Shown here: in pieces, positions 1,091 to 38,272 of the stretch | Layout: every line of letters starts with the position of its first letter | Numbering within the stretch: the first letter of the stretch is position 1 | Origin: Chloroflexota bacterium | GTDB lineage: Bacteria; Chloroflexota; UBA11872; VXOZ01 | Direction of reading: 5' to 3' | Assembly (NCBI GenBank): GCA_028874195.1 | Contig: JAPPLM010000068.1 | Span: 1-41,579, forward strand | Length of the DNA stretch: 41,579 bases | Program-made: the position numbers and the translations under genes | Notes under the pieces: generated by a model | What the model was told of the DNA's origin: nothing | The model's input: the letters and a program-made list of their open reading frames with translations, nothing else | The model's database searches: none

Positions 1091-1205
1091 GACGTTTAAA
1101 TCCTCTACTGCTGCTATGTTTGGGAGATTAGGAAAGGAGCCTTCCCTATTATCGTAACGTATACGTCAACTTCGGGGAAGCAAATAGTGCATACCCTTAT
1201 GCGCC

Positions 1206-1235
1206 GTCATTCCCGCGCAAGCGGGAATCCATCTT
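1206..1235 (+). repeat. Dispersed palindromic repeat, family A (attcccgc...gcgggaat)
   Basis: Contains 'attcccgcgcaagcgggaat', an 8-bp inverted repeat (attcccgc/gcgggaat) around a 4-base loop, followed by 'ccatctt'. The same element occurs at 2496, 7873, 14268 (inverted) and 15091. It is REP-like and could fold as a hairpin in RNA from either strand. Confidence 0.8.
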
Positions 1236-2411: not shown

Positions 2412-2495
2412 AGGAATTCGTGCCTTAACTTGCTTGGGATCGATGCGCTTGAATCGGATTCAGTCTGCTCGGAATTGTCACGAAAACAAGACTCC

Positions 2496-2525
2496 GTCAT
2501 TCCCGCGAAAGCGGGAAACCATCTT
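2496..2525 (+). repeat. Dispersed palindromic repeat, family A
   Basis: Reads gtcattcccgcgaaagcggg followed by aaaccatctt, one base different from other copies after the palindrome. It lies between the SDR and the Gfo-type gene. Confidence 0.75.
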
Positions 2526-2590
2526 CTTCTTGGACACAGGACTGTACGCGCTTGCACATCTACGAGATTCTCTACTCTGCACCAGTTCTG

Positions 2591-2613
2591 GACTCCGGCT
2601 TTCGCCGGAGTGA
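2591..2613. repeat. Short palindrome 'actccggctttcgccggagt'
   Basis: An 8-bp perfect inverted repeat (actccggc/gccggagt) around a tttc loop. It sits about 50 bases past the stop codon of the Gfo-type gene on the minus strand and resembles the family A elements in layout. It could act as a transcript-end hairpin, but no T-run follows. Confidence 0.5.
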
Positions 2614-2659
2614 CGGAGACTGCTTGACTTGCCTTTACGCTCCTCTTTCCACCAAGGCA

Positions 2660-6564: not shown

Positions 6565-7032
6565 TTGGTTCGTTTAGGTCTTTCCGAAATCACGCACAAT
6601 GCTCGAACGCTGGTTGTCGTCTTGATCGCCCTGTCTGTCGCGCTCGTATTCAGCGCGTGCGGACCGCGTGCCGGAGAGACCGGCGGACTCGACGTGACAA
6701 TCGTCTCTATCTCGCCGGAGCCTGCGGCGGTAGGTGACGCCGAAATAACCCTGCAGATCCGGGACATGGCAGGTAATCTCGTATCAGACGCCACCATTCA
6801 GGTGGAGGGCACGATGACCCATGCCGGTATGCAGCCGGTTATCGTTGCGACTGAAGCCCGTGGCAACGGCACGTACGTTACTGAGGACTTCAGATTCACT
6901 ATGGGCGGCGACTGGGTCATCATCGTGCGCGCCACGTTCGCCAACGGCAGAACGGCCGAACAGCGCATTGATCTGAAAGGCGTGCAGGGTGAGATGGACA
7001 TGAAGTCCGACAAGGGCAAGGAAGGAAACTAG
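6565..7032 (+). CDS. YtkA/FixH-like lipoprotein
   Basis: Encodes 155 residues. A hydrophobic N-terminus ends in a lipobox (LVFSAC, lipidated C32). The remainder is one beta-sandwich domain of the YtkA/FixH type: DVTIVSISPEPAAVGDAEIT, IQVEGTMTHAGMQPV, GNGTYVTEDFRFTMGGDWVI. In this superfamily such domains are extracytoplasmic and often linked to copper or cytochrome-oxidase assembly. That role is inferred. The start is read as TTG, preceded by AAAGGG; no in-frame ATG is available near it. The polyferredoxin gene starts 2 bases after the stop and its ribosome-binding site lies inside this gene, so the two are translationally linked. Confidence 0.75.
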   Translation: MVRLGLSEITHNARTLVVVLIALSVALVFSACGPRAGETGGLDVTIVSISPEPAAVGDAEITLQIRDMAGNLVSDATIQVEGTMTHAGMQPVIVATEARGNGTYVTEDFRFTMGGDWVIIVRATFANGRTAEQRIDLKGVQGEMDMKSDKGKEGN

Positions 7033-7034
7033 CC

Positions 7035-8855
7035 GTGGCTGTGCCGCGCACCCAGCCGTCGACCCAGCGCGATCTTCTCAACCTGCCCGTAATTGGGAGC
7101 TTTCTGCGCTGGAAGCATGCCCGGACATCAATGCAGGCTGTGCTGCTGGCAGTGTCGGCGCTCATCCTCTATGACGGTTTCTGGGGTCCGCAACTCGCGC
7201 CCAAGAATCTCGCCGGCGTGTTGCCCTGGGTGCATTGGCGGGGCTTGGTGGTGCTGGCGCTGCTCATTGCGGGCAACATCTTTTGCATGGCGTGCCCGTT
7301 CATGCTGCCGCGCCGCCTGGCCAAGAAGCTCCTGCCCGCCAACCGGCGCTGGCCGAAGGTCATTCGCAACAAGTGGCTGGCGCTTGGCGTTCTCTTGGTC
7401 TTCTTCTGGGCGTATGAGGCCTTCGATCTGTGGGCGAGTCCCTGGCTCACGGCGTGGGTGGCCTTGACGTACTTTGTGGCGGCCTTCGCCATTGACGGCA
7501 TCTTTCGCGGCGCGGCCTTTTGCAAGTACGTCTGTCCCATCGGACAGTTCCACTTCGTCCACGGCATGGTCTCGCCGCTGGAGGTGAAGGTGCGCCAGCC
7601 GGACCTCTGCGGTTCGTGTCCGACCAAAGACTGCATCAAGGGGCGCTATGCGCAGAGGCCTGAGCCGGACGTTCTTCGTCACTCCCGCGAGACGAACGCC
7701 GCGCAGGACTCACCTTCTCTGTCGGCATTAAGCTGGTCTGCAAAGAGTCACCCTCACCCCGACCCTCTCCCTCAAGGGAGAGGGAGTCCCCCGAGTTTGG
7801 GCGAGGGAATTGGGGTCCCGGGTAAATCGCTGGACGCTACAAGAGGAAATTCCAATAGTGAGCCCGGCATCCGTCATTCCCGCGCAAGCGGGAATCCATC
7901 TTCTGCAGGGCGAGTGGGTCAAGAGCCTGCGCCGACGACATCTGAATCTTCCCACCGTGAAAGCAAGCAATCTTCAATAAAGGAGCCTAAGCAAGCCGAG
8001 AGAGACATCGCCATCCCCGCCGGCCTCCAACTCGTGCAGACCGGCTGCGAACTGTGGCTCTTCCAAGAACGCAAAGTCGGCAACATGGACTGTACGTTCT
8101 GCCTGGACTGCATTCAGGCCTGTCCTTACGACAACGTCGGCATCCAGCTCCGCGCTCCCACCAGCGAGTTCCGCAAACTGGATCAATTGCACTCCGGCGT
8201 CGGCGCGCTGGCGCAGCGCATCGACCTGGCGGCGCTCGTGTACGTGCTCGTGTTCGCGGCCTTTGTGAACGCTTTCGGCATGGTAGCGCCGGTCTACGCA
8301 CTGGAACAGTGGCTCGCCGGGCAACTCGGTGTGACCAGTGAGCCGGTGGTGCTGGGCGTGCTGTTTATAGTGGGCCTCGTGGCGCTGCCGTTTGTGCTGG
8401 TGACCGCTGCGGCGTGGTCCAGCCGCGCCCTCAGCGGGAGCCGTGAAACGCTGGCGGCCACGGCGACACGCTTCAGCTTTGCCCTCATTCCCATCGGCTT
8501 TGGGATGTGGTTAGCGCACTACGGCTTCCACTTCCTCATCGGTGCATTGACCGCAATTCCCGTGACGCAGAGCTTTCTCGCGGACTTCGGCGTGATCCTA
8601 CTGGGTGCTCCCCAATGGGAGTTGGCCGCAATCGTGCCAGATTCCTGGTTGGTGCCGCTTGAACTACTGCTGCTGGAACTCGGCATGCTCGTTTCGCTGA
8701 CGGTTGGCTATCGCATCGCCAGAAAACAACACGGCTCCATGGCAAGGGCTATTCGTGCGCTCCTACCCTGGGCGGTTATCATTGTACTGTTGTTCTTTAC
8801 CGGCGCCTGGATGATGACGCAGCCGATGGAGATGCGCGGGATAATTCTGGGATAG
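7035..8855 (+). CDS. Membrane-bound polyferredoxin (NapH/CcoG-like) carrying in-frame repeat insertions
   Basis: Encodes 606 residues. Residues 33-160 contain several membrane helices and a first Cys pair (FCMACPF, C84/C87). CKYVCPIGQFHF (C163, C167) and LCGSCPTKDC (C192, C195, C200) follow. A second cluster, CTFCLDCIQACP, lies at 353-363, and further helices fill 395-606. This layout is that of membrane 4Fe-4S proteins that pass electrons to or across the membrane (NapH, CcoG/FixG, NosR relatives). Between C200 and about residue 325 lies a low-complexity stretch, HPHPDPLPQGRG (239-250) and RHSRASGNP (280-288), which are literal translations of two dispersed palindromic repeats. The start is GTG with AAGGA 8 bases upstream. 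It is coupled to the YtkA/FixH-like gene before it, and a one-helix protein follows. Confidence 0.85.
   Translation: MAVPRTQPSTQRDLLNLPVIGSFLRWKHARTSMQAVLLAVSALILYDGFWGPQLAPKNLAGVLPWVHWRGLVVLALLIAGNIFCMACPFMLPRRLAKKLLPANRRWPKVIRNKWLALGVLLVFFWAYEAFDLWASPWLTAWVALTYFVAAFAIDGIFRGAAFCKYVCPIGQFHFVHGMVSPLEVKVRQPDLCGSCPTKDCIKGRYAQRPEPDVLRHSRETNAAQDSPSLSALSWSAKSHPHPDPLPQGRGSPPSLGEGIGVPGKSLDATRGNSNSEPGIRHSRASGNPSSAGRVGQEPAPTTSESSHRESKQSSIKEPKQAERDIAIPAGLQLVQTGCELWLFQERKVGNMDCTFCLDCIQACPYDNVGIQLRAPTSEFRKLDQLHSGVGALAQRIDLAALVYVLVFAAFVNAFGMVAPVYALEQWLAGQLGVTSEPVVLGVLFIVGLVALPFVLVTAAAWSSRALSGSRETLAATATRFSFALIPIGFGMWLAHYGFHFLIGALTAIPVTQSFLADFGVILLGAPQWELAAIVPDSWLVPLELLLLELGMLVSLTVGYRIARKQHGSMARAIRALLPWAVIIVLLFFTGAWMMTQPMEMRGIILG
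7748..7785 (+). repeat. Dispersed palindromic repeat, family B, inside the polyferredoxin gene
   Basis: Contains ccctctccctcaagggagag, a hairpin (ccctctccct/agggagaggg) read as HPDPLPQGRG in the host frame. A related copy lies at 37909-37940 outside genes. The insertion keeps the frame open. Confidence 0.75.
7873..7902 (+). repeat. Dispersed palindromic repeat, family A, inside the polyferredoxin gene
   Basis: gtcattcccgcgcaagcggg followed by aatccatctt, identical to the intergenic copy at 1206-1235. In the host frame it is read as RHSRASGNPS. Confidence 0.85.
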
Positions 8856-11502: not shown

Positions 11503-11559
11503 CCGTTCACCCTTCGACCCTTCGGCAAGCTCAGGACAGGCAAGCTCAGGGCGAACGGA
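11503..11559 (-). repeat. Dispersed repeat, family C (composite)
   Basis: cgttcacccttcgacccttc followed by ggcaagctcaggacaggc and a second caagctcagggcgaacgg. This is the reverse complement of the 'ccgttcgtcctgagcttgtc' element. A near-identical composite lies at 28946-28999. It sits between panB and panC. Confidence 0.75.
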
Positions 11560-14214: not shown

Positions 14215-14241
14215 CGTAGCGCGGGGGCTTGTCCCCCGCTT
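14215..14241 (+). repeat. Dispersed palindromic repeat, family D
   Basis: gtagcgcgggggcttgtccc followed by ccgctt; the stem gcggggg/cccccgc surrounds cttgt. Its reverse complement occurs at 15025-15050, on the other side of the GNAT gene. Confidence 0.75.
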
Positions 14242-14267: not shown

Positions 14268-14297
14268 AAGATGGATTCCCGCTTTCGCGGGAATGAC
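14268..14297 (-). repeat. Dispersed palindromic repeat, family A (inverted)
   Basis: aagatggattcccgctttcg followed by cgggaatgac, the reverse complement of the family A element. A direct-orientation copy lies at 15091. Confidence 0.8.
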
Positions 14298-14347
14298 GGA
14301 CGACGGCTCCTCGCGTTACCTTCTTACGTTCACCCATGTGCCCGCCT

Positions 14348-14860
14348 CTATTCGTCCTGCGGCTCCAAGGGCATGGCGTAGAAAATCTGCCGTGCTACTT
14401 CCTCGAACCCAAGATCGGGATAGAGGTGGCGGCCGATAGGATTCTGGTCCAGGGTCTCGATGCGGGCAAGTATCAGGTTCTGGTCGCGAAAGTACTGCAG
14501 GCAGTGCTCCAACAGCATGCGGCCGATCCCCTTGCCGCGAAACTTCTCGTCCACGGCCATATCGGGTATCTGGCCGACGCTATTGGTGCGGTTGATGCGC
14601 GTTGTGGCATAGCCGATTACTTCACCATCGTATTCGACCACAAAGCACTCTTCCGGATGAGCGGTGAGATCCATGGCAACCATGGGCCATTTGCGTTCGC
14701 CCCAGGGAACGGGCAAGAGCCCAGGCCAAGCGTGTTCGATGTTATTCTCGATGCTAACACCCGTAAAGGCGGCGATGGTAAGCTCCTTGACGCGCGCCTC
14801 GTCGCGTGGTTCATATGGGCGTATGCTCAATTCCTTGAGAAAATCCTCAGCGACCGGCAT
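14348..14860 (-). CDS. GNAT-family N-acetyltransferase
   Basis: 170 residues with a standard GNAT fold. LSIRPYEPRDEARVKELTIAA is the N-terminal beta-alpha unit. DMAVDEKFRGKGIGRMLLEH contains the acetyl-CoA pyrophosphate-binding motif (RGKGIG). ETLDQNPIGRHLYPDLGFEEV is the C-terminal motif B region. The substrate is not predictable. The gene is isolated: both sides hold repeats of families A and D in mirrored orientation. Confidence 0.88.
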   Translation of the reverse strand: MPVAEDFLKELSIRPYEPRDEARVKELTIAAFTGVSIENNIEHAWPGLLPVPWGERKWPMVAMDLTAHPEECFVVEYDGEVIGYATTRINRTNSVGQIPDMAVDEKFRGKGIGRMLLEHCLQYFRDQNLILARIETLDQNPIGRHLYPDLGFEEVARQIFYAMPLEPQDE

Positions 14861-15024: not shown

Positions 15025-15050
15025 TGCGGGGGACAAGCCCCCGCGCTACT
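15025..15050 (-). repeat. Dispersed palindromic repeat, family D (inverted)
   Basis: gcgggggacaagcccccgcg then ctac, the reverse complement of 14215-14241. Confidence 0.75.
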
Positions 15051-15090
15051 GAGGAATGAGCCAACGCCCACATCCGCAATGCCGCACTCC

Positions 15091-15120
15091 GTCATTCCCG
15101 TGAAAACGGGAATCCATCTT
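15091..15120 (+). repeat. Dispersed palindromic repeat, family A
   Basis: gtcattcccgtgaaaacggg followed by aatccatctt. The stem has changed on both arms (cccgt/acggg), a compensatory change that keeps pairing. Confidence 0.75.
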
Positions 15121-25412: not shown

Positions 25413-25446
25413 GAAGTTCGTTTCCGCAAGGGTTGTGCCATCTCCG

Positions 25447-28900: not shown

Positions 28901-28945
28901 CGGAGAGTGAATACGAGCTTCAATATGCATCTAGTAGCCTCGCCG

Positions 28946-28999
28946 TACACCCTTCGACCCTTCGGCAAGCTCAGGACAGGCAGACTCAGGGCGAACGGC
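28946..28999 (-). repeat. Dispersed repeat, family C (composite)
   Basis: acacccttcgacccttcggc, then aagctcaggacaggc and cagactcagggcgaacgg, near-identical to 11503-11559. Confidence 0.7.
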
Positions 29000-38096: not shown

Positions 38097-38272
38097 TCGT
38101 TCGCCTGAGCTTATCGAAGAATAATCAGTATCCGTTCGTTCTGAGCCTGTCGAAGGATGACTAGAGTCCGTTCGTCCTGAGCTTGTCGAAGGATGATCAG
38201 TATCCGTTCGTCCTGAGCCTGTCGAAGGATGATCAGTATCCGTTCGCCTGAGCTTGTCGAAGGACAAGCGGA
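38097..38272 (+). repeat. Tandem array of family C, about five 36-bp units
   Basis: Units begin at about 38097, 38131, 38167, 38203 and 38239; the last four starts are exactly 36 bases apart. Each has tccgttcgtcctgagcttgt followed by cgaaggatgatcagta, with c/t variation (gcttgt/gcctgt) and small differences. Single copies lie elsewhere. There are no unique spacers. Confidence 0.85.

Follow-up and report, generated by a model that had tools for sequence, protein, structure and literature searches.

In-frame repeats of the CGTC-1 type and a second palindrome in the linker of a Chloroflexota polyferredoxin

The window, that is, the whole stretch of 41,579 nt analysed here, belongs to a Chloroflexota bacterium and carries at 7035–8855 on the plus strand a gene with a GTG start, which encodes a NapH/MauN-like polyferredoxin of 606 aa with two Fe-S cysteine clusters. 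According to the alignment of homologues, the invariant cysteines are residues 163/167, 192/195/200, 338 and 353/356/359/363, and the Fer4 matches in Pfam are weak. The match to TIGR02163, the NapH/MauN subfamily, has an E-value of 1.7e-7 and 31 bits, which is below the NCBIfam cut-off of 213; by this threshold the predicted protein is a relative of NapH/MauN and not a member. The upstream neighbour (6565–7032, plus strand), located 2 nt away, encodes a protein of 155 aa with a YtkA-like domain (PF13115, E 1.6e-13), and the two genes are probably co-transcribed.

Between the two cysteine clusters lies a lineage-specific, repeat-filled linker (7650–8018, plus strand), which comprises 123 codons, residues 206–328, and is open throughout in frame. 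The initial annotation had placed two palindromic repeat families in frame in this gene, and both could be located, at 7763–7784 (family B) and 7872–7898 (family A), where they are read as HPHPDPLPQGRG and RHSRASGNPS, respectively, within an open reading frame that stays open from 7035 to 8855. A large share of the linker is not recognisable as repeat. A candidate remnant of a third palindrome, CGTCACTCCCGCGA, is present at 7677–7690 on the plus strand; only its 5' half, read as RHSR, would be left, as suggested by its identity with the first half of the CGTCACTCCCGCG variant.

The family A element (7872–7898, plus strand) has the form CGTC-ATTCCCGC-GCAA-GCGGGAAT-CCA, in which an 8-bp stem starting with A-T pairs encloses a 4-nt loop, and the folding of this segment returns exactly the CGTC-1 hairpin (-13.6 kcal/mol, z -4.1). 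Its 27-mer is identical to an intergenic copy at 1205–1231 (plus strand), as had been noticed before. Further intergenic copies are found at 2495–2521 (plus), 2589–2615 (minus; the variant CACTCCGG...CCGGAGT), 14272–14298 (minus) and 15090–15116 (plus; the stem variant CCCGTG..AACGGG), and the positions of the two variants are also occupied in the close relative G004. The family was described initially as dispersed, which holds within the window, since CATTCCCGCGCAAGCGGGAAT (7875–7895) has five matches there with no more than three mismatches, compared with 0 expected. A map of the whole genome (3.5 Mb, 81 contigs), also proposed at that time, gives 170 family A sites, and the consensus of 114 copies is tCCGTCATTCCcGCGaAAGCgGGAATCCAtcttc, with an unpaired CGTC tag at one end and a CCA tail; 94.9% of the stem cells are paired. 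Among the close pairs, 21 of 33 show one inverted arrangement, counted without the head/tail definition of Di Nocera et al. (2013, PMC3733652). Judged from tag, stem, loop and tail, family A fits the definition of a CGTC-1 REP in that survey. Conservation does not extend past the core and a short ATCTTC tail, no clean insertion junction was found, and the Rfam search gave no match. Mobilisation of family A by a RAYT was considered and rejected for want of an association with PF01797 genes, as no copy lies within 1.5 kb of either of the two such genes.

The family B element (7751–7784, plus strand), read as HPDPLPQGRG, is composed of the arm CCCTCACCCCGACCCTCTCCC and a 9-bp stem-loop, CCCTCTCCC-TCAA-GGGAGAGGG, with a folding energy of -20.2 kcal/mol (z -1.9). 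The initial annotation had called this family dispersed as well, but its core CCCTCTCCCTCAAGGGAGAGGG at 7763–7784 is the sole copy in the window (0 expected by chance). The core pattern yields five sites, which is an undercount, and the longer arm CCCTCACCCYRRCCCTCTCCC yields 23 matches in 1.18 Mb of this genome, two of them inside called genes, namely, only the polyferredoxin gene and moeA.

Some other repeats were observed. A GTAG-tagged palindrome, GTAGCGCGGGGGCTTGTCCCCCGC, occurs as inverted copies at 14216–14239 and 15026–15049, flanking a GNAT acetyltransferase gene (14348–14860) that is also flanked on both sides by family A copies; this palindrome has about 80 matches in 1.18 Mb. In another region (L066; contig C45 of this genome, G000), a RAYT-like gene with a PF01797 match at 1501–1815 (C45:131036–131350) is surrounded by inverted GTAG repeats at 1368 (plus) and 1932/2012 (minus), an arrangement that resembles a typical REPtron, one of the GTAG family and not of family A. 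A second GTAG-tagged family, GGTAGCGYAGGTTTGCAACCTGC, is found at 25446 and 30200 of the window, with 38 matches in 1.18 Mb, and a dispersed repeat, CCTGAGCYTGTCGAAGG, at 38104–38267, 11503–11558 and 28943–28998, the copies at 38104 being in tandem, one every 36 nt.

How unusual, then, is a repeat-filled linker at this place? Between C200 and C338 there are 137 residues here, compared with 9–17 in most homologues from several phyla. The initial annotation had set its reading against the case that all homologues possess a repeat-free linker of the same length, which is not what the alignment shows: most homologues have no insert. Some Gemmatimonadota homologues have linkers of 16–92 aa without family A or B repeats, and the nearest repeat-free Chloroflexi relative has a linker of 44 aa; therefore, the site was already expandable. 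Five polyferredoxin orthologues of the genus, from this genome and four MAGs, have linkers of 89–168 aa at the same site, in which the palindromes are combined differently from one orthologue to the next and the frame is open in all five species. Family B is present in the polyferredoxin genes of G000, G004 and G001 and absent from those of G002 and G003. For one congener, jk18x7bins.44, the bin prefix is that used in a study of Ircinia sponges, and an association with sponges is likely for that congener.

In the AlphaFold2 model based on 30 homologues, residues 221–324 have pLDDT below 50 and no secondary structure, and the helical membrane and Fe-S parts are mostly of high confidence; the insert of about 120 residues is thus predicted to be disordered. 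Among the congeners, dN/dS is 0.07–0.16 on both flanks of the linker and 0.48–0.66 within it. Such strong purifying selection on both flanks argues that the polyferredoxin has been kept functional, and the protein probably works despite the insert.

The repeats are not confined to this gene. Gene-borne copies were counted in the 1.18 Mb mentioned above, in regions picked around known copies. Of the 116 family A-type copies, a simple gene caller puts 12 within called genes, compared with 83 expected at random, and the other 104 lie outside, i.e. the family is mostly intergenic. This caller overlooked six uvrA copies, for the insert scores poorly as coding. A second scan, in which a coding signal was required on both sides, identified 17 of 119 copies in frame in six genes: the polyferredoxin gene, uvrA, moeA, a 3-hydroxyacyl-CoA dehydrogenase/enoyl-CoA hydratase gene (hcdh), a gene for a DUF2298 membrane protein, and one for a methyltransferase-like protein, a label that rests on an NPPF motif, with no Pfam match. 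The moeA and hcdh inserts were found in all five congeners compared, and the uvrA insert in all six, each uvrA containing 2 to 12 palindromes. For example, the insert in uvrA of this genome (C15:37350–40796, minus strand) is about 158 residues long and contains seven CGTC palindromes in frame, and that of G003 is 339 residues long and contains at least 12. In other genomes of the class, including the repeat-rich genera g3 and g8, most uvrA genes among the matches listed are ungapped at the insert site. At the corresponding site of the methyltransferase-like gene, G002 and G004 have no more than 9 aa, close to an empty site, whereas G000, G001 and G003 have a filled linker.

Across the genus, four of these genes contain 21 inserts of 48–339 codons, all of which are multiples of three with zero stops; by base composition, the probability that 15 of the inserts are stop-free is about 1e-20. 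Within each of these four genes, which together hold 68 copies, all copies of a given orientation share a single frame. A genome-wide preference for one reading frame was rejected, since four different frames occur from gene to gene (RHSRESGNPS, VIPAKAGIH, SFPRKRESI and MDSRFHGNDG), and hence the consistency holds only within a gene. The peptides RHSRESGNPS, VIPAKAGIH and MDSRFHGNDG should be taken as flags of repeats, not as protein domains.

Very probably, then, we are dealing with a gene that still functions and has an insert filled with repeats, in which a CGTC-1 REP and a second palindrome occupy a tolerant surface linker between the Fe-S clusters. On this reading, families A and B would have entered the linker in frame early in the history of the genus, and copies would since have been gained, lost and exchanged species by species, with lengths that stay divisible by three and frames that stay open, templated conversion or a trans-acting transposase being the means of spread. 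The ribosome would read straight through the insert, and insertions that shift the frame or fall in folded parts would be purged.

Three other explanations of the insert deserve consideration. An old low-complexity expansion, in which repeat-like motifs arose by chance, would find a precedent in the longer repeat-free linkers of the Gemmatimonadota and of the nearest Chloroflexi relative mentioned above; it is contradicted by the exact 27-nt and 22-nt matches to dispersed families, where zero are expected, and we consider it very improbable. Repeats are typical break points of an assembly, and the present one is a draft of 81 contigs, which might point to a chimera, or the gene might be a decaying pseudogene. 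However, the site is filled in all four separately assembled congeneric MAGs, which excludes an assembly join for the polyferredoxin insert, and the open frames and the low dN/dS on both flanks are hardly those of a pseudogene; a probability close to nil is left for either. The hairpins within the insert could also suggest an element that is removed or skipped after transcription, as an intron, an intein or a bypassed segment would be. Nevertheless, a skipped element has no need of inserts that are all open multiples of three, and neither an Rfam match nor an intein domain among the Pfam results was obtained, so this explanation, too, is highly unlikely.

A separate question is whether the in-gene palindromes are merely tolerated or are preserved as DNA or RNA. 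Codons with an invariant amino acid were scored for full codon identity across orthologues and compared by Fisher's test with the core of the same protein; species lacking a copy were excluded at polyferredoxin B and hcdh, and none was excluded at moeA or uvrA. Identical codons amount to 10/11 in the family B repeat of the polyferredoxin gene (core 173/367, p 0.004), 8/8 in the moeA palindrome (130/338, p 0.0006), 9/10 in that of hcdh (206/541, p 0.001) and 9/9 in that of uvrA (136/338, p 0.0003). Pooled over the four loci, 36 of 38 synonymous codons are unchanged in the orthologous palindromes, compared with about 40% elsewhere. In addition, 14 in-gene stem cells have changed on both sides, compared with 3.8 after shuffling (covariation 0.215 vs. 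0.086), and in the MDSR copies of uvrA and hcdh the stem is preserved while the residues vary (FH, VR, LR). The variant CGTCACTCCCGCGAAAGCGGGAGTCCA of hcdh and uvrA has 1–8 copies per genome and yet is present at both loci in most species; consequently, it appears to have come down by inheritance, not by a new draw on the general pool of copies.

The DUF2298 gene provides a different kind of case. Its perfect REP (L199:16610–16636 on contig C39 of G000, minus strand) corresponds in the congeners to coding sequence of the same length and partial similarity, which agrees with the 27-nt REP at 22 positions in G004 and at 20, 16 and 15 elsewhere, and a tryptophan kept by all four other congeners is lost in G000. 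An insertion was rejected here because the change is length-neutral, and a check for paralogues returned only orthologues. The site looks like templated overwriting.

The above observations could be explained if selection for structure, or conversion recurring from other copies, preserved the in-gene palindromes as hairpins in DNA or RNA, with the coding sequence under two demands. The near invariance at synonymous codons, the compensatory stem changes, the persistence of the rare CGTCACTCCCGCGAAAGCGGGAGTCCA variant and the DUF2298 site all speak for this possibility, to which we would give not quite an even chance. However, the test is biased, as copies were recognised by resemblance to the consensus, in addition to the exclusion of copy-less species at two loci; the second uvrA copy (MDSR..GNDG) has just 5/7 identical codons (p 0.10); and inserted copies carry the covariation of their source family. 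Moreover, 6 of 13 intergenic positions mapped in G001 also bear a REP, some well preserved, so persistence may be a general property of REPs, and the retention of in-gene copies in G001 (4/4, preselected) does not differ significantly from that of intergenic ones (6/13, p 0.10). Rather tentatively, and with somewhat greater doubt, it may be proposed that the palindromes are actively kept as DNA/RNA structures while being translated, via templated conversion and/or hairpin selection, and that the repeats would thus lodge in disordered protein loops for the long term. The idea of in-frame repeat DNA tolerated in an exposed loop, raised initially, is well supported by the homologues without insert, the predicted disorder and the purifying selection on the flanks, but pure tolerance does not readily account for palindromes that are perfect at synonymous sites. 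Rickettsia is the best-known case of in-frame palindromes; with the same repeat superfamily behaving alike in a remote phylum, where uvrA and other core genes are affected throughout a genus, the choice between tolerated junk and preserved structure becomes testable comparatively.

Among known systems, MITEs such as the QMITEs of Coxiella are non-autonomous and also insert in frame, adding residues to proteins (PMC5896051), but they are longer and have terminal inverted repeats, none of which appeared in the flanks compared here. The GTAG REPs mobilised with RAYTs (REPINs) are likewise small dispersed palindromes, and a GTAG family beside a RAYT-like gene exists in this genome, whereas the tag of family A is CGTC and its copies keep away from both PF01797 genes. 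Palindromic elements of Rickettsia were reportedly described by Ogata in 2000 and 2002. The initial annotation likened the present repeats to these elements (RPEs) and regarded them as a different lineage; the host does belong to another phylum and two unrelated palindrome families share one gene, but the repeats are not unrelated to RPEs. The CGTC-1 superfamily, which includes dRS3 of Neisseria and RPE-6 of Rickettsia conorii, covers family A, so that the comparison is closer than first held (Di Nocera et al., 2013). As in that superfamily, the copies here have the CGTC tag, the A-T-started 8-bp stem, the 4-nt loop and the CCA tail, are mainly intergenic and commonly paired, have no linked transposase and are in part in frame within genes. 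The same survey reported REPs inside genes of other species, uvrA among them, and CGTC repeats in five phyla, Chloroflexi not being one of them; the available sections of a later REP survey (PMC12306157) do not discuss CGTC repeats in Chloroflexi. What differs from the CGTC-1 survey is that up to 12 copies occur in one uvrA and that the same genes are filled genus-wide. In Rickettsia, RPE-4/6/7 sites are common to orthologues, with differing repeat groups and a solvent-exposed location (PMC3767692), and the inserts described here resemble them in that conserved genes carry the repeats in frame, with orthologues occupied at the same places by different repeats. The phenomenon as such is thus already known from Rickettsia, and the apparent novelty lies in the phylum and in the conservation of the palindromes at the DNA level, which, in a comparison made for this genus alone, are nearly frozen at synonymous sites.
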